A stretch of DNA of 31,328 nucleotides from a virus: positions 1 to 31,328 of the IMG/VR virus record IMGVR_UViG_3300032356_000009. One strand, given 5' to 3'. A program made the translations under genes and the position numbers. Numbering within the stretch: the stretch's first letter is position 1; each line of letters begins with the position of its first letter. Shown in pieces: positions 1,504 through 27,923 of the stretch. Under the pieces are notes generated by a model. The model was given only the letters and a program-made list of their open reading frames with translations, did no database searches and was not told where the DNA came from.

Positions 1504-2131
1504 TCTTATCGCCTGGATCATCGCCGGAGGCGTCATCTTCGCCCTCGTCAACAGCAACGTCGCCGATGGACTGTTGAGCGCGCTCGACCTCAGCGACAAC
1601 CTCAAGCGCGCGGCGGATTGGGCAAGCGGGGTGCGCGGGGTTCCGGCGGGCGTCGCAGCGGTGTGTTTCTTCGCTATGGCGTATGTCTTCGGCGCGCTGG
1701 CGTATCGCTACGATCTCGTCCCGACGTGGCGGTTTATGCAGCCGATTGCTAACGATGTGCTGGCGACGGGTGCAGAGTGGTTGACGTTGTTCGTGGTGTT
1801 CTTGACGTTACTCCCTACGCTGATTGAAATCGCGGCGGCGAAGTTGGCTCAACGCGATGTTCAGATGTTGAAGTGGATGGTCTACTTCTTCATTTTCTTC
1901 GACATCGTAACCGACTACGGCGAAGCCGCCGCGCTCGTTGAGGTTTGGCAGCGCGACGGGTTGTTCGCGCCGCTGCCGGGAGCGCTGCAAGGCGCGGCGG
2001 TGGTGATGGCAAAAATCGGCTGGACGTTTGCGGCGTCATTCGCGTTTGAGTTCCTTGCGGTTCTGCTCGCATTGACGGCGCTGCTGCTTGCAGGGAACAT
2101 CAAAGCGCCAAGCGGAGGAGGCGGGCGGTGA
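1496..2131 (+). CDS. Four-helix integral membrane protein
   Basis: A 211-residue protein with about four hydrophobic segments: residues 5-18 (WIIAGGVIFALV), about 50-70 (VAAVCFFAMAYVFGALAY), about 90-115 (TLFVVFLTLLPTLIEIAA) plus YFFIFFDIV, and the C-terminal FEFLAVLLALTALLLAG. The ATG at 1496 overlaps the previous gene by eight bases and is preferred over an in-frame start at 1430, which lies wholly inside that gene. It ends in SGGGGR and overlaps the GTG of the FtsK-like gene (GTGA), so the two proteins are probably co-translated and may form one membrane complex. Function unknown. Confidence 0.6.
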   Translation: MTDLIAWIIAGGVIFALVNSNVADGLLSALDLSDNLKRAADWASGVRGVPAGVAAVCFFAMAYVFGALAYRYDLVPTWRFMQPIANDVLATGAEWLTLFVVFLTLLPTLIEIAAAKLAQRDVQMLKWMVYFFIFFDIVTDYGEAAALVEVWQRDGLFAPLPGALQGAAVVMAKIGWTFAASFAFEFLAVLLALTALLLAGNIKAPSGGGGR

Positions 2132-3672
2132 ACGTCAGCGGCAAAACGGTGTTTCTAATGCTATTCGGCGTCGCGCTGGCGTTCGGCGTTGATCCGGTCG
2201 CCGGGGTGTTTGCGTTCTTTGCGATGTTCGCTGCAACCAACCGCGACGCAGTGGTGCGCGCGTATCGCGCGCTGAACGACGCCGCGTATCAGGTCGAGCG
2301 CCAACTTGAACAGCGTGGCTTGCTGCCGACGGCGCTGCGTACTGTCACAACACCGTATAGAAATAAAAGAGAAGAGGATGTTGTGACGGTTGACGAGACC
2401 GCCGACGCGCCGACCGGCGCCGCCGCAGCCCCCGCTGCTGTCACAACACCGTATAGAAATAAAAGAGAAGATACTGTTGTGACGCTTCCTTCTCCCTCTG
2501 TGTTCAACCCCACCGACCCGCGTCCGGCGCGGTTCGCGGTTCCGCTGGGTGTTGACCAGACCGGCGCGTTTCGTTGGTTGGACTTCGGGAGCGACGCGCT
2601 GCATATTGGGCTGTACGGAACCAGCGGCTGCGGGAAGGATCACCTGCTGCGGCTGTGGTTCGCCGCGCTGCTGAACGAGATGGCGGTGCGGTGGGCGATA
2701 CTGGACGGTAAGGGCGACTGGTTGACGCCAAACCTCGCCCGACTGCCGCAGATGCTTTTCCCACCGGCGGGCGGTTACGGCGACGAGGGACAACGGCGGA
2801 TACTGAACGCGATCGGCGCAATCAACGAGGAAGCAAAGCGTCGGTTCGGGTTACTGCTCGGCGCGGGCGTGCGCAGCGTTGAGGAGTATAACCAGACCGC
2901 GCCCGATCCGCTACCGCTGCTGGTGGTGTTGGCGACGGATATTATTGATGCCGTTGACGAGACGGAACGTTTACTGATCGCGCTGGTCAGCAAAGCGCGG
3001 GCGTTGGGCATTCGGGTTATCGTCTCGATGCAGACGCCCACCGGCAAGCGGCTGGAGTGGCGGATGAACTTGTCAACGCTCATTTCCGGCGCGCTGGTGG
3101 ACGGAAGCCAGGACGCCCCGGCGTTGGGGGTGCGCGATCCGAAGGCGCTGGTGTACCGCCCGTCGCAACTACCGCCGCCGCCCGGTGAGCGCGGGCTGTT
3201 CGTGGTGCGTCACAACAACGAACAGTTCCTTATCCGAACACCGGCGTTGGTCGGGGATTTCGACGGGTTGATCAACGCGCGCAACGACGCGGCGCTGCTG
3301 GAGACGTTATTGTTCAGCGCCGTCACAACACCTCATATAAATAAAAGAGAAGCGGATGATGTGACGCTTGATAAGACCGTCCCCGCGCTTGCCGATGCGT
3401 CGGGACGGCGGGGACGGTCGGATACGGCATCAGAAGGCGCGGGGACGGCTTCCGTCCCGTCCCCTTCCCCAAGCGTCCCCGTCCCCGACCGTCCCGAACC
3501 CGCAAAAATCGCCCAAATCGGGGGTTTTCGCGGGGACGGGGACGGCGGGGACGATGCGTTGCTGGCAGCGCTTGCAGCGCTCCAGCGCGCGGGCGTCAGT
3601 CGAGAGCAGGCGCGGACGCTGGGCGCGCGGTTCCGTAACTCAGACTGGGCGCGCGCGGCGCGGCTGAATTGA
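2128..3672 (+). CDS. FtsK/HerA-like membrane-anchored ATPase with non-canonical Walker motifs
   Basis: A 514-residue protein. Residues 7-35 are one or two membrane segments. After a linker comes a RecA-fold region that lines up with FtsK/SpoIIIE motors: HIGLYGTSGCGKDHLLR (Walker A, 164-171), RWAILDGKGDW, LPLLVVLATDIIDAV (Walker B position, 264-271), then ALGIRVIVSMQTPTG and a C-terminal GLFVVR strand. Walker A has Asp where Ser or Thr is normal, and the Walker B Asp-Glu is replaced by Ala-Thr-Asp, so ATPase activity is uncertain. Three 45-bp palindromes are read in frame (residues 73-87, 105-119, 399-413). A Pro/Gly/Asp-rich tail contains GC-rich palindromes and ends in a basic helix. An FtsK-type pump is unusual in a siphovirus; its role is unknown. 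Confidence 0.7.
   Translation: MNVSGKTVFLMLFGVALAFGVDPVAGVFAFFAMFAATNRDAVVRAYRALNDAAYQVERQLEQRGLLPTALRTVTTPYRNKREEDVVTVDETADAPTGAAAAPAAVTTPYRNKREDTVVTLPSPSVFNPTDPRPARFAVPLGVDQTGAFRWLDFGSDALHIGLYGTSGCGKDHLLRLWFAALLNEMAVRWAILDGKGDWLTPNLARLPQMLFPPAGGYGDEGQRRILNAIGAINEEAKRRFGLLLGAGVRSVEEYNQTAPDPLPLLVVLATDIIDAVDETERLLIALVSKARALGIRVIVSMQTPTGKRLEWRMNLSTLISGALVDGSQDAPALGVRDPKALVYRPSQLPPPPGERGLFVVRHNNEQFLIRTPALVGDFDGLINARNDAALLETLLFSAVTTPHINKREADDVTLDKTVPALADASGRRGRSDTASEGAGTASVPSPSPSVPVPDRPEPAKIAQIGGFRGDGDGGDDALLAALAALQRAGVSREQARTLGARFRNSDWARAARLN
2344..2388 (+). repeat. 45-bp palindromic element, copy 1 (coding)
   Basis: The arms GTCACAACA and TGTTGTGAC (9 bp) surround the core TATAGAAATAAAAGA. It is read in frame in the FtsK-like gene as 15 codons beginning VTTPYRNKRE. 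It is identical to copy 2 over its first 31 bases, which points to recent duplication or gene conversion. Confidence 0.9.
2440..2484 (+). repeat. 45-bp palindromic element, copy 2 (coding)
   Basis: Same arms and core as copy 1, with a start-to-start distance of 96 bp. It is in the same reading phase of the FtsK-like gene and encodes VTTPYRNKREDTVVT. The stem is 9 bp; positions 10 and 35 no longer pair. Confidence 0.9.
3322..3366 (+). repeat. 45-bp palindromic element, copy 3 (coding, diverged)
   Basis: The third in-frame copy in the FtsK-like gene, encoding VTTPHINKREADDVT. The core reads ATATAAATAAAAGA. The right arm has a mismatch (GATGTGAC), so the stem is only six plus two base pairs. 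This is the most degraded copy of the family. Confidence 0.85.
3375..3419 (+). repeat. GC-rich palindrome, 10-bp perfect arms, 45 bp total
   Basis: GACCGTCCCC (3375-3384) is perfectly inverted as GGGGACGGTC (3410-3419). It begins eight bases after copy 3 of the A-rich element and has the same total length, yet its sequence is unrelated. It is read in frame within the FtsK-like gene. Confidence 0.75.
3442..3458 (+). repeat. Short GC-rich hairpin
   Basis: GGGACGG, a three-base loop CTT, then CCGTCCC: a perfect 7-bp stem inside the low-complexity tail of the FtsK-like gene. It is built from the same GGGACGG word as the palindromes on either side. Confidence 0.7.
3489..3539 (+). repeat. Imperfect GC-rich palindrome, 51 bp
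   Basis: CCGTCCC (3489) ... CCCGCAAAAA on the left pairs imperfectly with TTTTCGCGGGGACGG (3525-3539) on the right. The inner CCC and GGG of the centre can also pair. The length is a multiple of three and the gene's frame stays open through it. Confidence 0.65.
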
Positions 3673-4436: not shown

Positions 4437-4481
4437 GTCACAACACACTATAGAAATAAAAGAAGAATGCGTGTTGTGACG
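4437..4481 (+). repeat. 45-bp palindromic element, copy 4 (intergenic)
   Basis: Lies between the PP-loop gene stop and the Shine-Dalgarno of the next gene. It has a 10-bp stem (GTCACAACAC / GTGTTGTGAC) and the core TATAGAAATAAAAGA. It occupies over half of this 82-base gap. Confidence 0.9.
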
Positions 4482-4498: not shown

Positions 4499-5218
4499 GT
4501 GAAGTTCCGCATTCTCGCAGCACTGGCGGTTCTGTTGCTGAGCGCCCCAAGCGCGCTGGGCGTCCAGCGCGCGCTTGCGCCGACGCGCGGCGACCTCGCG
4601 GGCTGGCTTGCGGCGGTCGGAATAGAGTTGGCGTATCTGTCGCTGGCGTTCGCGGTGTTTGAAGACCGGCAGCGCCAGCGCCTGGCGGCGCGCGTGGCGC
4701 GGGCGGCGGTGCTGACTGCGATTGTGTTGAACGTTCTGGCAGACTACGCCGCGCGCGTTCCGGCGGGGTTGAGCAGTGCTGCGCAGTTTCTCACAACGTT
4801 CGACTGGCTGCTGCTGATGCTGTCGGTGTTGGAAAGCGCGCCGCTGGCGACGCTGGCGTATACGCTTGCGACGTTGCTGCATACGCACGGCGGTTCGCAT
4901 CCGCATCCGCAACCGGATGCGTCGTATACGGCGCATACGGCGCATACGGATACGCATACGGATACGCATACGGCGCATACGGATACGCATACGGCGCATA
5001 CGGATACGCATACGGCGCATACGGATACGCATACGGCGCATACGGATACGCATACGGCGCATACGGATACGCATACGGCGCATACGGCGCATACGCAGCG
5101 CACTGCGTCGTACCGGTGCCCGCACTGCGGTGCGGTGCTGGCGAAGCAGCAGCAGTACGCGGCTGCGCTGCGGTACGGGTATTGTGGGAAGTGCCGTAGT
5201 CAGAAGAAGGTGACGTAG
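4499..5218 (+). CDS. Membrane protein with His-rich tandem repeat and C-terminal zinc ribbon
   Basis: A 239-residue protein starting at GTG 4499, with AAGGAG eight bases upstream. The N terminus has a signal-like hydrophobic stretch (ILAALAVLLLSAPSALG), then further hydrophobic segments (about residues 35-55, 70-85 and 100-125). From about residue 140 the chain becomes Thr/His/Asp repeats (TDTHTAH, six exact copies plus partial ones). It ends with a zinc ribbon: CPHC (207-210) and CGKC (229-232). The His-rich stretch could bind metal, and the ribbon suggests binding of nucleic acid or protein at the membrane. No family name is recognisable. It ends two bases before the methylase gene. Confidence 0.6.
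   Translation: MKFRILAALAVLLLSAPSALGVQRALAPTRGDLAGWLAAVGIELAYLSLAFAVFEDRQRQRLAARVARAAVLTAIVLNVLADYAARVPAGLSSAAQFLTTFDWLLLMLSVLESAPLATLAYTLATLLHTHGGSHPHPQPDASYTAHTAHTDTHTDTHTAHTDTHTAHTDTHTAHTDTHTAHTDTHTAHTDTHTAHTAHTQRTASYRCPHCGAVLAKQQQYAAALRYGYCGKCRSQKKVT
4921..5098 (+). repeat. 21-bp tandem repeat region (six exact copies plus flanking partial units)
   Basis: Units begin with GGATAC at 4960, 4981, 5002, 5023, 5044 and 5065; each is 21 bp and encodes TDTHTAH. Within each unit a six-base word (CATACG or GATACG) recurs, so the array probably grew by replication slippage. Partial units lie on both sides. The frame is kept because 21 is a multiple of three. Confidence 0.95.
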
Positions 5219-5219
5219 T

Positions 5220-6149
5220 ATGAGGAAGATACGCGCCCCGTTCCCGTATTACGGCGGGAAGTACACCATCGTTGACGAACTGAACCGGCGTTTCGGTGAT
5301 GTGGATGTACGGATCGATCCGTTCTGCGGATCGGCGGCGTGGATACTCACATCGCCGCCGGTGAAGACGGAGATCATCAACGATCTTTACGCCGATGTGG
5401 TCAACGCCTACCGCGCCATTCGCGCCGACCCGGACGCCGTTGCGCACTATTGCGATTATCCGGTGTCGGAATTGGATAGGCTTGCGCGCATCTGGACGTT
5501 GCGCGAAACGTTACCGGAGCGCGCTGCGCGCTGCGCTGCCGATCCGAACTGGTACGACGCACGGGCGGCAGGGTATTATCTCTATACCGTCTCAACCGAC
5601 ATAAAGGCGCAACCGTACAAGCGCGGCCCTTGGGTGGTTGAGAATGGGAAACTGGTCAAGCGCAGTGGGGTGAATGGGATGACGAAATCAGTACCTAAAC
5701 AAGTAAAGCCCTTTGGAACTTCCAAAGTGCGCTACGCCGCGTTGGTCGTCTGGTTCCGTCAGATTGCCGAGCGGTTGCGTGGTGTGGTAATTCTCTGCGG
5801 CGACTGGCTGCGCGCGGTTAGTACGTTCCCGTCGGGGAAATACGGCGCAACCGCGATCCTTATCGACCCGCCGTATCCAGAATACGGTCAACGTCTCTAC
5901 GCAACCGACGCGCAATCTTCCGTCTGGTTCGACGCCGCGCGTTGGGCGGTTGCGAATGGAGACAACCCGCTTGTGCGGATCGCGGTGTGCGGCTATTGGT
6001 CGCCCGAAACCGACGCGGTGTTTCCGTCCGACTGGGCGAGGTTTCGTTGGACGACACAAGGCGGGTTTGGTAATCTTCGGAAGCGCGGCGCGAACGAGAA
6101 CCGATTCCGGGAGTGCGTCTGGTTTAGCCCGCATTGCAGGCGGGGGTAA
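5220..6149 (+). CDS. D12-class adenine-specific DNA methyltransferase (first of two)
   Basis: A 309-residue protein of the Dam/D12 N6-adenine methylase type. The N terminus has PFPYYGGKY (residues 7-15, the conserved start of D12 enzymes). The SAM-binding loop is IDPFCGSAAW (32-41), with IINDLYADVVNAY following. The catalytic motif IV is DPPY (216-219). It methylates adenine in DNA, probably to protect phage DNA from host restriction; the site is unknown. The ATG at 5220 lies just after the previous stop. It shares fold and many blocks (HWAVANGDNP-like, CVWFS.HC) with the methylase at 22473. Confidence 0.85.
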   Translation: MRKIRAPFPYYGGKYTIVDELNRRFGDVDVRIDPFCGSAAWILTSPPVKTEIINDLYADVVNAYRAIRADPDAVAHYCDYPVSELDRLARIWTLRETLPERAARCAADPNWYDARAAGYYLYTVSTDIKAQPYKRGPWVVENGKLVKRSGVNGMTKSVPKQVKPFGTSKVRYAALVVWFRQIAERLRGVVILCGDWLRAVSTFPSGKYGATAILIDPPYPEYGQRLYATDAQSSVWFDAARWAVANGDNPLVRIAVCGYWSPETDAVFPSDWARFRWTTQGGFGNLRKRGANENRFRECVWFSPHCRRG

Positions 6150-7513: not shown

Positions 7514-8197
7514 ATGTCGAGCACGGAACTTGCGCGCTTCTTGGATGTGGCGCTTGACGTTCAAGCGCCGCCGTATCCGGGCATTCACGTTGACTTTGGA
7601 TTGATGGTGGCTAGCAACGGTGTAATGCTGGTCGCCAAGAAGTATAATAACCCGGCGTACCTTCGCGGTCGCGGTTCCTTATCGCCGAAGGTGGTGAAGG
7701 TGCTCGTTGCGCTTGCGGAGGCGACGTACATCGGAAGTATTGAAGTGAACGGCAACCGGATGACCGTAACCGCCCAGAGTACGTGGTATGATGAGAAAGC
7801 CGGGGCGGAAGTGGCGGGCGAGTACCGAGAAGTGACGCTGCCGGAACTCTACTGCCGTCAAATCCCGATCAAGCGAATGGTCGAGGTGCTAGACGACAAG
7901 GCGTTAGGATGGGAAGTTCTTCCTCTTTCAAGCAATCCGAAACTGAAAACGCTGAAAGAAGCCAACGCGAAAGACTACGTTGCGTTGGTAGATAGCCCGC
8001 ACGGCGGGTATGAACTCTTTCGCTTGAGGAACATCGACGACGCACACTGGTACAGCGTCGCCCAGTTGCGGTGTGGGCTTCGGCTGTTCGGGAAGCACTC
8101 ATCCTTGATCGTGCGGCGAAGCAAAGACGGGTGGTTGGCGTTCAGCGATCAGTTGGGCTATACGTTCGCAATCACTCCGTTCGTCAAGCGCGACTAG
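7514..8197 (+). CDS. Hypothetical protein, possible sliding-clamp-like fold
   Basis: A 227-residue protein starting MSSTELARFLDVALD, with AGGAAGAG before the ATG. It appears to hold repeated strand-rich units: IHVDFGLMVASNGVML, SIEVNGNRMTVTAQ, then a C-terminal part with a helix (SVAQLRCGLRLFGKHSS) and strands ending LGYTFAITPFV. The arrangement of a helix, paired strands and a final strand near the C terminus is reminiscent of DnaN-type clamps, but no diagnostic motif is present and this is a weak guess. It is followed by a strong terminator. Confidence 0.5.
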   Translation: MSSTELARFLDVALDVQAPPYPGIHVDFGLMVASNGVMLVAKKYNNPAYLRGRGSLSPKVVKVLVALAEATYIGSIEVNGNRMTVTAQSTWYDEKAGAEVAGEYREVTLPELYCRQIPIKRMVEVLDDKALGWEVLPLSSNPKLKTLKEANAKDYVALVDSPHGGYELFRLRNIDDAHWYSVAQLRCGLRLFGKHSSLIVRRSKDGWLAFSDQLGYTFAITPFVKRD

Positions 8198-8216
8198 TCT
8201 CCAACGCAAGAGCCAG

Positions 8217-8248
8217 AACCGCCGGACGCGCGTCCGGCGGTTTCTGTT
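8217..8248 (+). terminator. Strong rho-independent terminator
   Basis: AACCGCCGGACGC (8217-8229) is perfectly inverted in the next 13 bases and is followed by TTCTGTTTGTT. It closes the transcription unit of the gene at 7514. Confidence 0.9.
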
Positions 8249-8259
8249 TGTTCAGCAGT

Positions 8260-8304
8260 GTCACAACACCGTATAGAAAGAAAAGAAGATGATGTGTTGT
8301 GACG
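8260..8304 (+). repeat. 45-bp palindromic element, copy 5 (intergenic)
   Basis: Lies between the terminator at 8217 and the -35 box at 8318, so transcripts from that promoter would not include it. It has a 10-bp stem and the core TATAGAAAGAAAAGA, with G in place of T as in copy 6. Confidence 0.9.
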
Positions 8305-8317
8305 ACGGCGCGCGGGT

Positions 8318-8346
8318 TTGACGATTCGGCGCGCGTGTGGTATACT
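8318..8346 (+). promoter_or_regulatory. Sigma-70-type promoter
   Basis: TTGACG (8318-8323), a 17-base spacer, then TATACT (8341-8346). It drives the small genes at 8382 and 8611. Its -35 box begins 13 bases after palindromic element copy 5. Confidence 0.85.
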
Positions 8347-8381: not shown

Positions 8382-8588
8382 ATGTCGAAACGACGATCTC
8401 AACCAAAGCCCCAACCGGCGCGTGAAATCGTTATCGCCTCCGGTCAAGACTACCGCATTTTGTTCGACCGCGAGACGCGCGACTACGCGGTCGAGTACCG
8501 CGGCGAGCCGGTCGGCTGGCGACCGACCGAGGCGGAAGCGCGCAGACTGGTTGAGGCGCTGCGCTACGAGGACGCGAAGCGCGCGTAA
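8382..8588 (+). CDS. Small hypothetical protein
   Basis: A 68-residue protein (MSKRRSQPKPQPAREIV...) with AAAGGAG eight bases before the ATG. A basic, Pro-rich start is followed by strands (EIVIASGQDYRILFD, DYAVEYRGEPVGW) and a helix (TEAEARRLVEALRYEDA). The strand-strand-helix layout is like that of other small accessory proteins here. First gene of a two-gene unit. Confidence 0.6.
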   Translation: MSKRRSQPKPQPAREIVIASGQDYRILFDRETRDYAVEYRGEPVGWRPTEAEARRLVEALRYEDAKRA

Positions 8589-8610
8589 CAGACGATAGAG
8601 GAGACTCGAA

Positions 8611-8898
8611 ATGCGACGCAAACTACCGAGGTACGAAATCTGGATCGGGGAAGAGCATAAGGAACACGAGATACTCGAAATCCGCGCCGAGAGGCTCGGA
8701 GAGTACGTGGACAGAGGCGAACGGCGCAGTCTCATCTACCGCGTATACCGGAAGGCGAACGGCAACATACTCGTCCACGTCTACGACCGGGCGGACGTTC
8801 CCGGAGAGATCGACCGCGCGTCGTTGTTCTGGTACGAAGATCTGGAAAATGCGGCGCGGGATTTCCGACCGGCGCTTCATAGGATGAACCTCATCTGA
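8611..8898 (+). CDS. Small accessory protein, paralogue family member C
   Basis: A 95-residue protein with GAGGAG before the ATG. The segment RVYRKANGNILVHVYDR followed by LFWYEDLENAARDF matches the layout in members A and B (FY.ADNGMVVVHDV followed by IIYLY.NVEDACVNF). The N terminus differs: charged and helical (EEHKEHEILEIRAERL) rather than strand-rich. No family is known to me. A terminator hairpin follows. Confidence 0.6.
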   Translation: MRRKLPRYEIWIGEEHKEHEILEIRAERLGEYVDRGERRSLIYRVYRKANGNILVHVYDRADVPGEIDRASLFWYEDLENAARDFRPALHRMNLI

Positions 8899-8965: not shown

Positions 8966-9010
8966 TGTCACAACACCTCGTCTTCTTTTCTTTCTATACG
9001 GTATTGTGAC
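8966..9010 (-). repeat. 45-bp palindromic element, copy 6 (reverse orientation)
   Basis: The only copy whose A-rich core lies on the minus strand. Read on that strand it begins GTCACAATACCGTATAG. It sits between the terminator at 8913 and the start region of the late gene block. A C-to-T change in the arm leaves a wobble pair, so folding is kept. Confidence 0.9.
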
Positions 9011-9115: not shown

Positions 9116-9340
9116 ATGAACCTTCCCTTTTCGCAACCGCTGGATAAGATCACCTACGGCGCGTTGGCCGCCGCAACCGTCATCATTCTCACGTGGGCGC
9201 TGCGTGAGTTCGTAGGGATCGACTTGCCGTCAGAGGTACAGGCGGTGCTGGCGGTCATCTTCGGGTACGTCGTCTCGTATCACATCCCGCTAAGTGAGGT
9301 TGAGGCTAAAGCAATCGCTCAGACGTTCTACCGCAAATGA
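9116..9340 (+). CDS. Small holin-like membrane protein
   Basis: A 74-residue protein with two hydrophobic stretches, ITYGALAAATVIILTWALR and VQAVLAVIFGYVVSY, separated by a short loop (FVGIDLPSEV). This layout is common in small phage membrane proteins annotated as holins, which release endolysin through the inner membrane, but its place just before the terminase rather than beside the endolysin makes that uncertain. The ATG at 9116 follows an AGGAGGAGG stretch. It overlaps the next gene (ATGA). Confidence 0.5.
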   Translation: MNLPFSQPLDKITYGALAAATVIILTWALREFVGIDLPSEVQAVLAVIFGYVVSYHIPLSEVEAKAIAQTFYRK

Positions 9341-14645: not shown

Positions 14646-14690
14646 GTCACAACACAGTATAGAAATAAAAGAAGATGCTGTGTTGTGACA
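14646..14690 (+). repeat. 45-bp palindromic element, copy 7 (longest stem)
   Basis: Begins eight bases after the capsid stop codon. Positions 1-14 pair with 31-44 (14 bp with one wobble) around a 16-base loop beginning TAGAAATAAAAG. First of three closely spaced copies. Confidence 0.92.
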
Positions 14691-14843
14691 CTGCTGAAAG
14701 ACACCGGCGGCGGGGAGTACTACGTTTGGGTGAGGCGGACTGTCACAACACTGCATAGAGATAAAAGAAGATGCGGTGTTGTGACGGTGGTTACGGATCA
14801 ACGGTTGAACACACAACGGGCGCTGTCACAACACGCTCTATAA
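14685..14843 (+). other. Short open frame across palindromic copies 7-9, possible gene fragment
   Basis: From a GTG in the right arm of copy 7, a frame of 52 codons stays open through copy 8 to a TAA in copy 9. Between the repeats it reads LLKDTGGGEYYVWVRR, which looks like real protein. There is no Shine-Dalgarno. It may be the remnant of a small gene into which the elements were inserted. Confidence 0.25.
14742..14786 (+). repeat. 45-bp palindromic element, copy 8
   Basis: A 14-bp stem (one wobble) with changes at position 13 (C-G instead of T-G) and position 11 (T-G instead of A-T) relative to copy 7 that keep pairing. The core is CATAGAGATAAAAGA. Starts 96 bp after copy 7. Confidence 0.92.
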
Positions 14844-14869
14844 ATAAAAGAGATGCAGGTGTTGTGACG
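14825..14869 (+). repeat. 45-bp palindromic element, copy 9
   Basis: Third copy in the capsid-to-14893 gap, 83 bp after copy 8. A 10-bp stem; the core is shifted (CTATAAATAAAAGAG). It lies just upstream of the Shine-Dalgarno of the next gene. Confidence 0.9.
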
Positions 14870-22472: not shown

Positions 22473-23375
22473 ATGCCTCGTCAACTATTTCCATACGTCG
22501 GCGGAAAATACCTTGTTGCGCCGGAAATCAACCGGCGGTTCGGCGAGATCGATACACGCATCGACGCCTTTACCGGATCGTCGAGTTGGATACTTGCGTC
22601 GCCGCCGGTGAAGTACGAGATCGTCAACGATCTGGACGGCTACGTTGTCAACTATCTGCGCGCGGTCAAGTACGCGCCGGATGAGATTGCGCGTCATCTG
22701 GACTTCCCACGCGCCGAACTGGAGTTGATTGCGTATCACCACTACACCAGAGATAAGTTCACAGAACTCGTCGCGCGGCTTGGCGGCGATCCTGAGTATT
22801 ACGATCCGGTTATCGCCGCGCGCTGGGCGTATGTGATGGCGTATAGTCTAGTACAAGAGCATAAGCGCGCCGGTGGATGGTTGGTACGCGATGGACGACT
22901 GGTTTACGAACGCGGCGCGGGACGAAGTCGGGCAAGTATGACAGCAGTACCTCTCTTACTTCCCCGACTCGTTAGAGAGCGCCGCGTTTCCGAATACGTC
23001 GCCGCGCTTTCTGAGCGACTGCGCAACGTTTGGGTGATGTGGAATGATTTTGAAGTCGTTGTCGGAAAGGCGAACCGCCACGACCTCGGCGTTGTCGGTA
23101 TTCTGCTCGACCCGCCGTACCCGCGCCATCTACGCGACTTCGACTACAACACCGACAGCGAAGACATCTGGCATCGCGCCGCGCACTGGGCGGTCGCCAA
23201 CGGCGACAACCCCAAATACCGCATCGCGGTCTGCGGCTACAACGACGCCGAGAGCGATGCACTGTTCCCGCCTTCTTGGTCGCGGTTTTTCTGGCGGCGT
23301 TTTGGTTTGGGACGAAATAAGGATAAGGAATGCGTCTGGTTCAGTCAGCACTGCGGGGGAGGTAGAGATGATTGA
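22473..23375 (+). CDS. D12-class adenine-specific DNA methyltransferase (second of two)
   Basis: A 300-residue protein with LFPYVGGKY (5-13), IDAFTGSSSWI (30-40) and catalytic DPPY (213-216). It shares segments across its length with the methylase at 5220: RFGE.D.RID, ILASPPVK.EI.NDL, HWAVANGDNP..RIAVCGY, CVWFSQHC. The middle is diverged, which may mean another target sequence. AAGGAG lies before the ATG. Located between tail and lysis genes, away from the first copy. Confidence 0.85.
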   Translation: MPRQLFPYVGGKYLVAPEINRRFGEIDTRIDAFTGSSSWILASPPVKYEIVNDLDGYVVNYLRAVKYAPDEIARHLDFPRAELELIAYHHYTRDKFTELVARLGGDPEYYDPVIAARWAYVMAYSLVQEHKRAGGWLVRDGRLVYERGAGRSRASMTAVPLLLPRLVRERRVSEYVAALSERLRNVWVMWNDFEVVVGKANRHDLGVVGILLDPPYPRHLRDFDYNTDSEDIWHRAAHWAVANGDNPKYRIAVCGYNDAESDALFPPSWSRFFWRRFGLGRNKDKECVWFSQHCGGGRDD

Positions 23376-25019: not shown

Positions 25020-27923
25020 ATGTCCATCTCATTTACAGATTACCTCGACTTGCTCTACGGCGACGACGCTGCTGCCTATACAACCGTCAGCGTCAAGTTA
25101 ACCGACGGTCGCTTCAAATGTCAGACGTTCTCGCTGTCGCAACGCGCCGAAATCGTCAAACACATTGAGCGTCACCTTGCATACGACATCTACATCAAGC
25201 GCGCGTCGCAGAATAAGATTCCAGACCCCGGATCGTCCGGCAGCGCTAAACTTGCACACCTCCAGCGCGTCATCACCGCCGACATCGATATCCAATCCGC
25301 TGCACACAAAGCGCAGACGCTTCCGGCGTCGAAAGACGACGCGCTAAAACTGTTGGCGGAAAGCGGCTTGCCGGAACCTACGCTGATCGTCCACACCGGC
25401 AACGGTCTGATGCCGATGTGGGTTCTGCGCGAGCCGCAGTGGGTCAACTACGTCGCCCCGATCCAGGCGGGCGTCGAAGCGCAACTGCGCATCGCGGCGG
25501 CGCGCTACGGCTGGACACTCGACAACACGAGCGACGCGGCGCGGTCGATTCGCGTGATCGGATCGTACAACTGGAAGCAGCGCCCGCAGAAGAAGCCCGT
25601 CACTATTATCAGAAACAGCGACCGCTACTACGATCTGAGCGACTTCGCTACGTTCGCGCGCAAGCCGCTTCTCACACCGAAGCGCGTCGGCGGCGCGGCA
25701 ACGCGGGAAACGATTGAGACGCTGCTGAAGCACATTCCGGGCGACGGGTTGGAGTACAATATGTGGCTTGCAGCGGTGTGGGCGATCCAGTCCGCGCTGC
25801 CGGAAGACATTGCAGCCGAGGTGCTCGACGGTTGGACGTATGATTGGGAAAAGCACCGGAAGCCCGATCACGTCGAGAGTGGGATCGGCGTTCTCGTCAA
25901 CCTCGCCAGACAGTACGGGTTTGAAGGGACGATCCCCGGCTTGCGCGGCGGGTACGTTACGTCGCCGGAAATGCCCGACGCGATGCGCATCAATCAGCGC
26001 TACCTCGACATCGAGATTGACCCCGACGATCAGTACCCCAACATCGTTGTAATTCGTTCCGCAAAAGGAACTGGGAAAACACAGTGGTTGGCGGAGGCGG
26101 CGAAGTGCTACCCGCGCGTGTTGTCTGTGGGGCACCGCGTCTCGCTGGTGCGCCAGAGCGCGGCACGGCTGAACCTCACACCGTACTACGAAGACGGAAA
26201 GTGGATCACCAACGCCCCGCGCGTCGCAACGACCATCCACAGTCTCGACAAGATCGAGACAGACGCGCCGTATGATCTCGTGATCGTTGACGAGATCGAA
26301 CAAGTGTTGAAAGCGATTGTCAACGACCGCAATCTGAAAAGCCGCAAAGTCTCTGCGGTCGGCGCGCTGATGGAGCACCTGCGCAAGGCGCGTTTGATTA
26401 TTCTCACCGACGCCGACGTGGGCGAGGCGACGTTGACGTTCATCAACGCTGCGTTTCCCGACCAACCTATTGCTTACGTCGAGAACGAATACGCACACCG
26501 CGCAATCGACCATCTCGTACTGCTGTCGTCTGATATGGACGTACTCCAGAAGTCGCTGGAGTGGTACGAAACCAATGCGTGGAAAATCGCGCTCGCGTGC
26601 AACACACGCGCAGACGCCGACCGCGCCGAACTGTTTTACCGCCAGTACGCGCCGGACGCGCGAATACTGAAGATTACGTCGGAAACAAGCGAAAATAACA
26701 ACGAAACGCTTGAGCGCATCAACGATATTCTGAGAGACGTTGATGTGTTCATCTACTCGCCGTCGGTCGGCACCGGCGTCTCGATTGACGTTGGGGGGTT
26801 CGCGTTGTTCGGCATCGCCCGCAACGGCGTCGGCGTCGGCGACGTTGACGACTTCCGCCAGCAGTTGGGGCGTATTCGCAACCCGCTTGAGCGCGAGATC
26901 AACGTGTACGTTGAGACCAAGCGAATGAACGAACCGACCTCGCCCGAAGCGTACCGCGATCTCGCCAAACTGCGCGAACTGGAAGATGACTTCCGCATTT
27001 CGCGCGCGAACGGCGCGCCGGAACCGGCGACGGAGTGGGATCGCGTCTATCTCGATCTGTACTGCGTTGTCAAAGCAAAAACTGCGGCGCAGAAGAACAA
27101 CTTTTTTGAGAACTTTACCGGCGCATACGCGGCTGAAGGCGTTGAGGTCTGGGACGACCGCGACAAACCGAATCTACCGACCGACCACCGCCGCGAACTG
27201 GCGAAGTCGTTGCGCGAACAGCGCGAAGCGCAAGAGCGCGCCCGCGCCGAACGGATCGCCAACGCGCCCGCGCCGGACGACGCGAAGACAGATGAGGAAA
27301 AGCGCGACGCAGAGCGCAAGGTGGAACTGGAAGAGCGCTACGGCATCGACGTTGACGCCGATCTGGTGTTGGACGACGAACGCGGCGCATACGGCGCGGC
27401 GCAGCGCTTCGCGGCGGTTGAAGACGCAGAGATAGCAAAGGCGCTGGACGAGATAGAGACAACGCGGCGGTTCAGCGCAGACCGCAACCGGTTCGCGTTG
27501 TTCGCAATTTGGTTCAATGCGCTTATCACCGCGCTGCGGTTGCGGATCGAAGAGGGTGCGGAGATTGCAATCACCGAAGAGTTCGTCGATCTCGTCGAGC
27601 GCAACCGGCTGCTGATCCACGCCGCGCTGGGGGTCAAGGTGCGCGAAGACTTCCGGCAGAAGCCGATGTCGTTTGTGGGCGCGCTCTTCCGGCGGATCGG
27701 CATCGACATCGAAGGGAAGCAGCAGCGGGTAGACGGCGGGAAGCGCGTGCGCGTCTACCGGCTGGTCAACGTTGACCGGGCGCGACTGCGAACGACCGGC
27801 ATCCGCAAGCGGCACGCAGACCGCGCCGCGCCGGTGTATGAGTTTTTGGGAACTGCTGTCACAACACATCATAGAAATAAAAGAAAAGCCGGTGTTGTGA
27901 CGGCTGCTACTGTTGTGCACTAG
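25020..27923 (+). CDS. Primase-helicase fusion: AEP-like primase plus SF2/OBP-like helicase
   Basis: A 967-residue replication protein with AAAGGAG before the ATG. Residues 80-185 resemble archaeo-eukaryotic primases: ITADIDIQS (Asp 88, 90), TLIVHTGNGLMPMW and DAARSIRVIGSYNWK. Residues about 237-300 look like a PriCT-2 type domain (EYNMWLAAVWAIQSALPED). Then a helicase: Walker A SAKGTGKT (347-354), LVIVDEIEQ (Walker B 423-428), LIILTDADVG, SVGTGVSID and QQLGRIRNP (motif VI), most like origin-binding-protein helicases. A charged coiled region follows. Palindromic copy 10 encodes part of its last 22 residues. It probably starts and unwinds at the phage origin. Confidence 0.75.
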   Translation: MSISFTDYLDLLYGDDAAAYTTVSVKLTDGRFKCQTFSLSQRAEIVKHIERHLAYDIYIKRASQNKIPDPGSSGSAKLAHLQRVITADIDIQSAAHKAQTLPASKDDALKLLAESGLPEPTLIVHTGNGLMPMWVLREPQWVNYVAPIQAGVEAQLRIAAARYGWTLDNTSDAARSIRVIGSYNWKQRPQKKPVTIIRNSDRYYDLSDFATFARKPLLTPKRVGGAATRETIETLLKHIPGDGLEYNMWLAAVWAIQSALPEDIAAEVLDGWTYDWEKHRKPDHVESGIGVLVNLARQYGFEGTIPGLRGGYVTSPEMPDAMRINQRYLDIEIDPDDQYPNIVVIRSAKGTGKTQWLAEAAKCYPRVLSVGHRVSLVRQSAARLNLTPYYEDGKWITNAPRVATTIHSLDKIETDAPYDLVIVDEIEQVLKAIVNDRNLKSRKVSAVGALMEHLRKARLIILTDADVGEATLTFINAAFPDQPIAYVENEYAHRAIDHLVLLSSDMDVLQKSLEWYETNAWKIALACNTRADADRAELFYRQYAPDARILKITSETSENNNETLERINDILRDVDVFIYSPSVGTGVSIDVGGFALFGIARNGVGVGDVDDFRQQLGRIRNPLEREINVYVETKRMNEPTSPEAYRDLAKLRELEDDFRISRANGAPEPATEWDRVYLDLYCVVKAKTAAQKNNFFENFTGAYAAEGVEVWDDRDKPNLPTDHRRELAKSLREQREAQERARAERIANAPAPDDAKTDEEKRDAERKVELEERYGIDVDADLVLDDERGAYGAAQRFAAVEDAEIAKALDEIETTRRFSADRNRFALFAIWFNALITALRLRIEEGAEIAITEEFVDLVERNRLLIHAALGVKVREDFRQKPMSFVGALFRRIGIDIEGKQQRVDGGKRVRVYRLVNVDRARLRTTGIRKRHADRAAPVYEFLGTAVTTHHRNKRKAGVVTAATVVH
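27858..27902 (+). repeat. 45-bp palindromic element, copy 10 (coding)
   Basis: In-frame at the end of the primase-helicase gene as VTTHHRNKRKAGVVT, only seven codons before the stop. A 10-bp stem; the core is CATAGAAATAAAAGA. Confidence 0.9.

Follow-up and report, generated by a model that had tools for sequence, protein, structure and literature searches.

Rickettsia palindromic elements occur between genes and also in frame inside genes, where they form a conserved translated segment (PMC10969869, PMC1950309). In Cluster A mycobacteriophages (L5), the stoperators are many genome-wide copies of a phage-specific site, found mostly in one orientation relative to transcription (PMC6550527), while the genome of phage N15 has, in its IR centromere sites, a palindromic site for protein binding that is present in a few copies (PMC7205306). 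Palindromic elements lying in frame have been interpreted as selfish insertions from which new segments of protein arise. The element described here shares traits with each of these systems. As with the Rickettsia elements, it is a palindromic repeat located both in intergenic sequence and in frame within genes; as with stoperators, one phage-specific site is present in many copies across the genome, mostly oriented the same way relative to transcription; and as with the N15 IR sites, a palindromic site is found in a few copies in a phage genome, although binding is only putative for the present element. REP and MITE sequences are similar in being short palindromes with terminal inverted repeats and partly decayed copies.

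The 31.3-kb window, i.e. the whole stretch of viral DNA that was analysed, encodes terminase, portal, capsid, tape-measure (assigned from length and position), DNA polymerase, primase-helicase and FtsK-like proteins. It contains 10 copies of a 44-bp palindrome, GTCACAACAC-N24-GTGTTGTGAC, with two 10-bp inverted arms on either side of a 24-bp core that is asymmetric and rich in A. Searching the pattern with two or fewer mismatches returned these 10 matches in the window and none in 100 dinucleotide shuffles (chance expectation 0). The copies were assigned to sites S1 to S8, with three copies forming an array at S7, and are given below with the two genes that carry coding copies.

2128..3672, + strand: FtsK/SpoIIIE-like gene with S1-S3 (PHROG 1358, E=1e-17; Pfam FtsK_SpoIIIE 22.6 bits, below the 24-bit cut-off)
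2344..2387, + strand: element at S1, VTTPYRNKREEDVVT, frame 0 in the FtsK-like gene; site filled in 16 sequences including the window
2440..2483, + strand: element at S2, VTTPYRNKREDTVVT, frame 0 in the FtsK-like gene just 5' of the ATPase domain; filled in 17 sequences including the window, 1 partly covered
3322..3365, + strand: element at S3, VTTPHINKREADDVT, frame 0 in the FtsK-like gene, 3' of the ATPase domain; filled in 17 sequences including the window
4437..4480, + strand: element at S4, intergenic, 19 bp upstream of the next gene's start in 9/9 contigs having S4
8260..8303, + strand: element at S5, intergenic, preceded by a terminator-like hairpin (8216-8243) and followed by a promoter-like site (8318-8346)
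8967..9010, - strand: element at S6, intergenic, core reversed, ~50 bp upstream of a TATAAT-type -10 preceding gene 9116-9340
14646..14689, + strand: element 1 of the S7 array, which lies between the major capsid gene and gene 14893
14742..14785, + strand: element 2 of the S7 array, between the major capsid gene and gene 14893
14825..14868, + strand: element 3 of the S7 array, 25 bp upstream of the start of gene 14893
25020..27923, + strand: primase-helicase/replication protein gene with S8 (PHROG 4913, E=2.8e-45; Herpes_ori_bp 37.9 bits)
27858..27901, + strand: element at S8, VTTHHRNKRKAGVVT, frame 0 near the primase-helicase C-terminus, in a predicted disordered tail; filled in 15 sequences including the window

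The exact core was found in at least 80 stretches of viral contigs, and a scan with the arms only returned 82, some of which belong to a second subgroup whose core differs. The S3 copy of the window carries the core subtype CATATAAATAAAAG. Across 269 copies the arms are close to invariant. Noncoding copies were exactly 44 bp long in 248 of 270 cases despite interiors that differ by compensated shifts, and other lengths were confined to the remaining 22, as opposed to none of 64 coding copies. The terminal inverted repeats typical of MITEs are present in the form of the 10-bp arms, which are extended by partly paired flanks.

Outside viral contigs, the exact core pattern was absent from the genomes of 84,980 prokaryote species and a host origin of the element was rejected on this basis. 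The arms-only scan of genomes gave 5 matches; the one that was read, in Chloroflexi, is a different hairpin of another length. No genuine copy was present in 400 Chloroflexota genomes, where two 1-mismatch matches lacked the core, and BLAST of the element against phage and plasmid collections produced partial, chance-level matches only. Among the collections searched, genuine copies were thus seen in phage contigs only. A match on a 75.9-kb contig (L057) was discarded as chance, its right arm being missing. Only one copy, 44 bp long and with the divergent core TATAGTTAATAGATAACG, is present on a 52.7-kb contig (L122), where it precedes a gene that looks by eye like window gene 7514-8197.

An earlier note on this DNA held that the four coding copies lie in the only forward frame free of stops, and this was confirmed, none of 44 unique coding sequences being open in frame +1 or +2. 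The +1 frame always meets TGA in the right arm as claimed, while the TAG expected in the core of the +2 frame occurs in three window copies and is replaced by TAA in the different core of the copy at 3322. Similarly, the peptide VTT...VVT attributed to all four copies is correct for S1, S2 and S8; the third FtsK copy reads VTT...DVT. The unit of 45 nucleotides, a multiple of three, was found to consist of the 44-bp element proper and its first flanking base, which is always A or G. Of the 44 unique coding sequences, 41 have an open frame -2 on the reverse strand and 29 an open frame -0. Since a long ORF can run across the element only in an open frame, the frame is nearly tautological when taken alone and carries little information; homologue comparison and the contrast between coding and noncoding copies were chosen as the informative tests. 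All 65 coding copies detected, which come from 17 FtsK and 15 primase sequences with those of the window counted, are 44 bp long, in frame 0 and in + orientation. Stops in frame 0 were present in 35/132 unique noncoding sequences versus 0/44 unique coding sequences (Fisher P=1.6e-5, the copies being not fully independent). The reading frame is an additional constraint on the coding copies.

These observations raise the possibility that the 15-residue segment itself is selected, as a linker, localisation or cleavage motif, with the DNA repeat being incidental. The frame and stop-free reading held in 65/65 coding copies, and the lack in coding interiors of the frame-0 stops seen in 35/132 noncoding ones, would agree with such a role. 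The codons point the other way. Codons 1-3 are GTC ACA ACA in 65/65 coding copies, codon 13 is GTT in 62/65 and codon 14 is GTG in 64/65, whereas invariant Val/Thr residues elsewhere in these genes are encoded by a codon other than the main one in 20-26% of sequences. In the coding cores, wobble bases vary by 1.4% as against 10.8% for first and 18.8% for second positions. Residues 4-6 and 9-12 of the segment change among coding copies, and codon 5 encodes H, R, Y, S or P while its wobble base is T in 65/65. The element also retains Arg AGA, Asn AAT and Thr ACA, codons seldom used elsewhere in these genes (1-2%, 10-19% and 11-16%, respectively), and the same arms recur in noncoding copies. Near-invariant wobble bases and retained rare codons indicate that selection acts on nucleotides, so the description of the copies as protein-coding repeats is not upheld, and a function at the peptide level is disfavoured as very improbable. 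With nucleotides rather than peptide held constant, the element probably serves as a signal for binding or hairpin formation, and some genes translate through it.

The elements occupy fixed places. Synteny is kept across 14 contigs that are partly or nearly complete, and these have S1-S8 in common wherever the sites are covered. Among detectable close homologues (17 FtsK, 15 primase) no orthologue lacks the element and the places are the same in all, from which it follows that the in-gene sites are old and fixed. The alignment proposed earlier as a means of showing that the segments are extra relative to homologues therefore does not demonstrate insertion, because all 17 FtsK and 15 primase sequences carry them. 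Profile searches with the FtsK and primase alignments gave no further relatives. The nearest relatives of the FtsK-like protein in the phage collection, FtsK-like proteins of Bacillus phages, align to residues 133-320 only, between S2 and S3; the primase-helicase shares 23-29% identity with replication proteins from phages of Vibrio and Halomonas, among them VP585, VHML and phiHAP-1. Structure prediction places the primase copy (residues 947-961) in a disordered tail past the last helix (918-935), with pLDDT ~25. The FtsK copies lie on either side of the ATPase domain in predicted coil, in a model (mean pLDDT 36) that is too poor to place the segments. The suggestion that the segments are tolerated at linkers and termini is accordingly borne out insofar as they are read in frame outside conserved domains.

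A selfish palindromic element of the MITE or RPE type could have spread in an ancestor and then become fixed, with in-frame copies tolerated. Its terminal inverted repeats, dispersal in genes as well as spacers, the presence in certain spacers of copies that are degenerate or reduced to the arms, and in-frame insertion as in Rickettsia RPEs (PMC10969869) are all compatible with this origin. Against it, 10,742 pairwise alignments contained no clean empty site or target duplication, the search for empty sites (insertion length, target duplication) having yielded only inter-arm deletions or messy spacers, and no Y1 transposase was found in the window. The sites are syntenic in relatives, and copies are not clearly homogenised within genomes, concerted evolution between sites of one genome being not significant (P=0.05). 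Lasting conservation at wobble positions would also be unexpected of dead insertions. We consider a fixed selfish element unlikely.

At the noncoding sites, S4 precedes gene 4499, S5 and S6 flank a set of small genes (8382-8898) that varies, and most contigs have 23-25 bp between the last S7 copy and the start that follows it. S5 is located 3' of the terminator-like hairpin, and 5' of the promoter-like site in the window and one relative. Relatives have near-identical left flanks at S5 with the core in either orientation, which suggests that orientation is not essential there; at S6, core orientation also differs among relatives. A search with the capsid protein, in which the repeat was not used, identified 47 distinct loci in which sufficient sequence follows the gene; each of the 47 has 2-5 copies, 10-26 bp after the capsid match.

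Several further features were observed around these sites. Within ~130 bp of the window (8216-8346), a terminator-like hairpin is succeeded by the palindromic element and then by a promoter-like site with an extended -10. A second conserved motif, GGAGTACTACGTTTGGGTGAGGCG, is situated between elements of the capsid array (window 14690-14741; also L016 and L052) and is inverted near S6 in relatives. Capsid-array spacers of L035, L070 and L052 contain degenerate copies, namely arm-only palindromes such as GTCACAACAGAAGTGTTGTGAC and lone left arms, i.e. core deletions. The PAPS-reductase-like gene beside FtsK was not detected in L084, L091 and G007, where FtsK is directly next to the following conserved gene; in L084 and L091 the spacer between the two contains elements.

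The elements could alternatively serve as short-homology linkers for the exchange of phage modules, a reading encouraged by gene content that varies among relatives both in the S5-S6 interval and in the surroundings of the PAPS-reductase-like gene, and by interiors that vary at a given site. Breakpoints marked by shifts in identity are, however, not enriched near elements (9.3% within 100 bp versus 7.2% expected, n=108). The idea of recombination hotspots was hence rejected and recombination linkers are disfavoured as highly improbable.

A further explanation places the signal in the mRNA as a hairpin with a stem of 10-15 bp and an A-rich loop of 14-24 nt, acting in 3' end protection, processing or 5' UTR structure, with the in-gene copies translated through. 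Noncoding copies are predicted to fold into 15-bp hairpins (-20.8 to -22.2 kcal/mol, z about -6.5), and their five inner pairs, 11-34 to 15-30, covary (Watson-Crick 283 vs 235 shuffled, z 5.4, in a shuffle test that ignores relatedness), as does the outer pair -2/+2 (z 4.6). The arrays found 10-26 nt past the capsid gene, with 2-5 copies each, would also suit an RNA hairpin. Conversely, the outer 10 bp are invariant in sequence and show no compensatory change, covariation is missing in coding copies, and a search of Rfam gave 0 matches at gathering score. Covariation could itself arise from quasi-palindrome correction during replication. As G-U is not in excess over C-A relative to shuffles, there is no RNA-specific signature and covariation does not distinguish DNA from RNA. 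An RNA hairpin is regarded as doubtful, ranking after a DNA recognition site and ahead of a fixed selfish element.

The preferred explanation, which we hold at somewhat less than even confidence, is that the element is a cis-acting nucleotide signal specific to this phage lineage, most likely a dispersed DNA site bound by a phage-encoded protein. Such a protein would recognise both arms on the DNA, making the element a dispersed operator or nucleoprotein site. The signal is repeated at ~8 syntenic sites with its two invariant arms kept 24 bp apart; the S5 and S6 copies are located at transcription-unit boundaries, beside terminator- and promoter-like sequences, and the S4 and S7 copies at a fixed 19-25 bp ahead of start codons. 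In FtsK and primase the signal would sit in linkers or a tail and be read through as 15 residues, so that these copies also hold the frame and avoid stops. We infer binding by a protein and a regulatory role; codon-level conservation, rare codons, fixed 44-bp length, near-invariant arms, proximity to promoter- and terminator-like sequences and to starts, and phage-only copies argue for a recognition site. Arguing against it, the FtsK copies are not close to obvious promoters, and Watson-Crick covariation of the inner stem is not predicted by simple dimer-site recognition. A search of the window for the cognate DNA-binding protein gave only a weak HTH_18 match below cut-off, in gene 685-1089. 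Our verdict is that the element is a phage-specific palindromic cis-signal tolerated in linkers. Near-identical dimer or hairpin sites across the genome, several of them translated as linkers in replication and translocase genes and read by a putative phage factor, may together constitute a dispersed regulatory or genome-organising system, a proposal that we make tentatively.

The likeness to Rickettsia palindromic elements drawn in the earlier note stands for in-frame palindromes (65/65 coding copies in frame 0) and fails for length, host and demonstrated insertion. Those elements are ~150 bp long and reside in bacterial chromosomes, whereas the phage element is 44 bp and seen in phage contigs only, has no demonstrable insertion among these homologues, and shows nucleotide rather than peptide conservation; membership in the Rickettsia family is not supported. 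A stoperator is a 13-bp asymmetric site whose repressor is known, in contrast to a 44-bp palindrome that has several copies within genes, flips its orientation at two sites (S5, S6) and is accompanied by no repressor family match in the window. Compared with the N15 IR sites, the present element has a different sequence, larger arm spacing and copies inside coding sequence, and no ParB domain was detected in the window (no ParB_N match for a ParB/SopB partner, in a contig that may be incomplete). Unlike REP and MITE sequences, it was not found in host genomes and has syntenic sites, with no Y1 transposase in the window and no target duplication in the pairwise alignments. As the element lacks at least one tested defining feature of each of the Rickettsia elements, stoperators and N15 IR sites, it was filed under none of them. 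Conserved wobble bases, the fixity of the sites and the lack of copies in host genomes together suggest that a nucleotide signal is conserved and the peptide is the price paid. The comparative test used here separates selfish in-frame insertion from a nucleotide signal that is translated through, and the finding points to a putative phage factor reading a 44-bp palindrome at ~10 places, some within genes.

Two other features were noted in the window. A 21-bp tandem repeat, CGCATACGGATACGCATACGG, at 4920-5100 inside gene 4499-5218 encodes a His/Thr-rich HTDTHTAHT... sequence, and two D12-class adenine methyltransferase genes (5220-6149 and 22473-23375) share a 129-nt stretch that is 74% identical between them.
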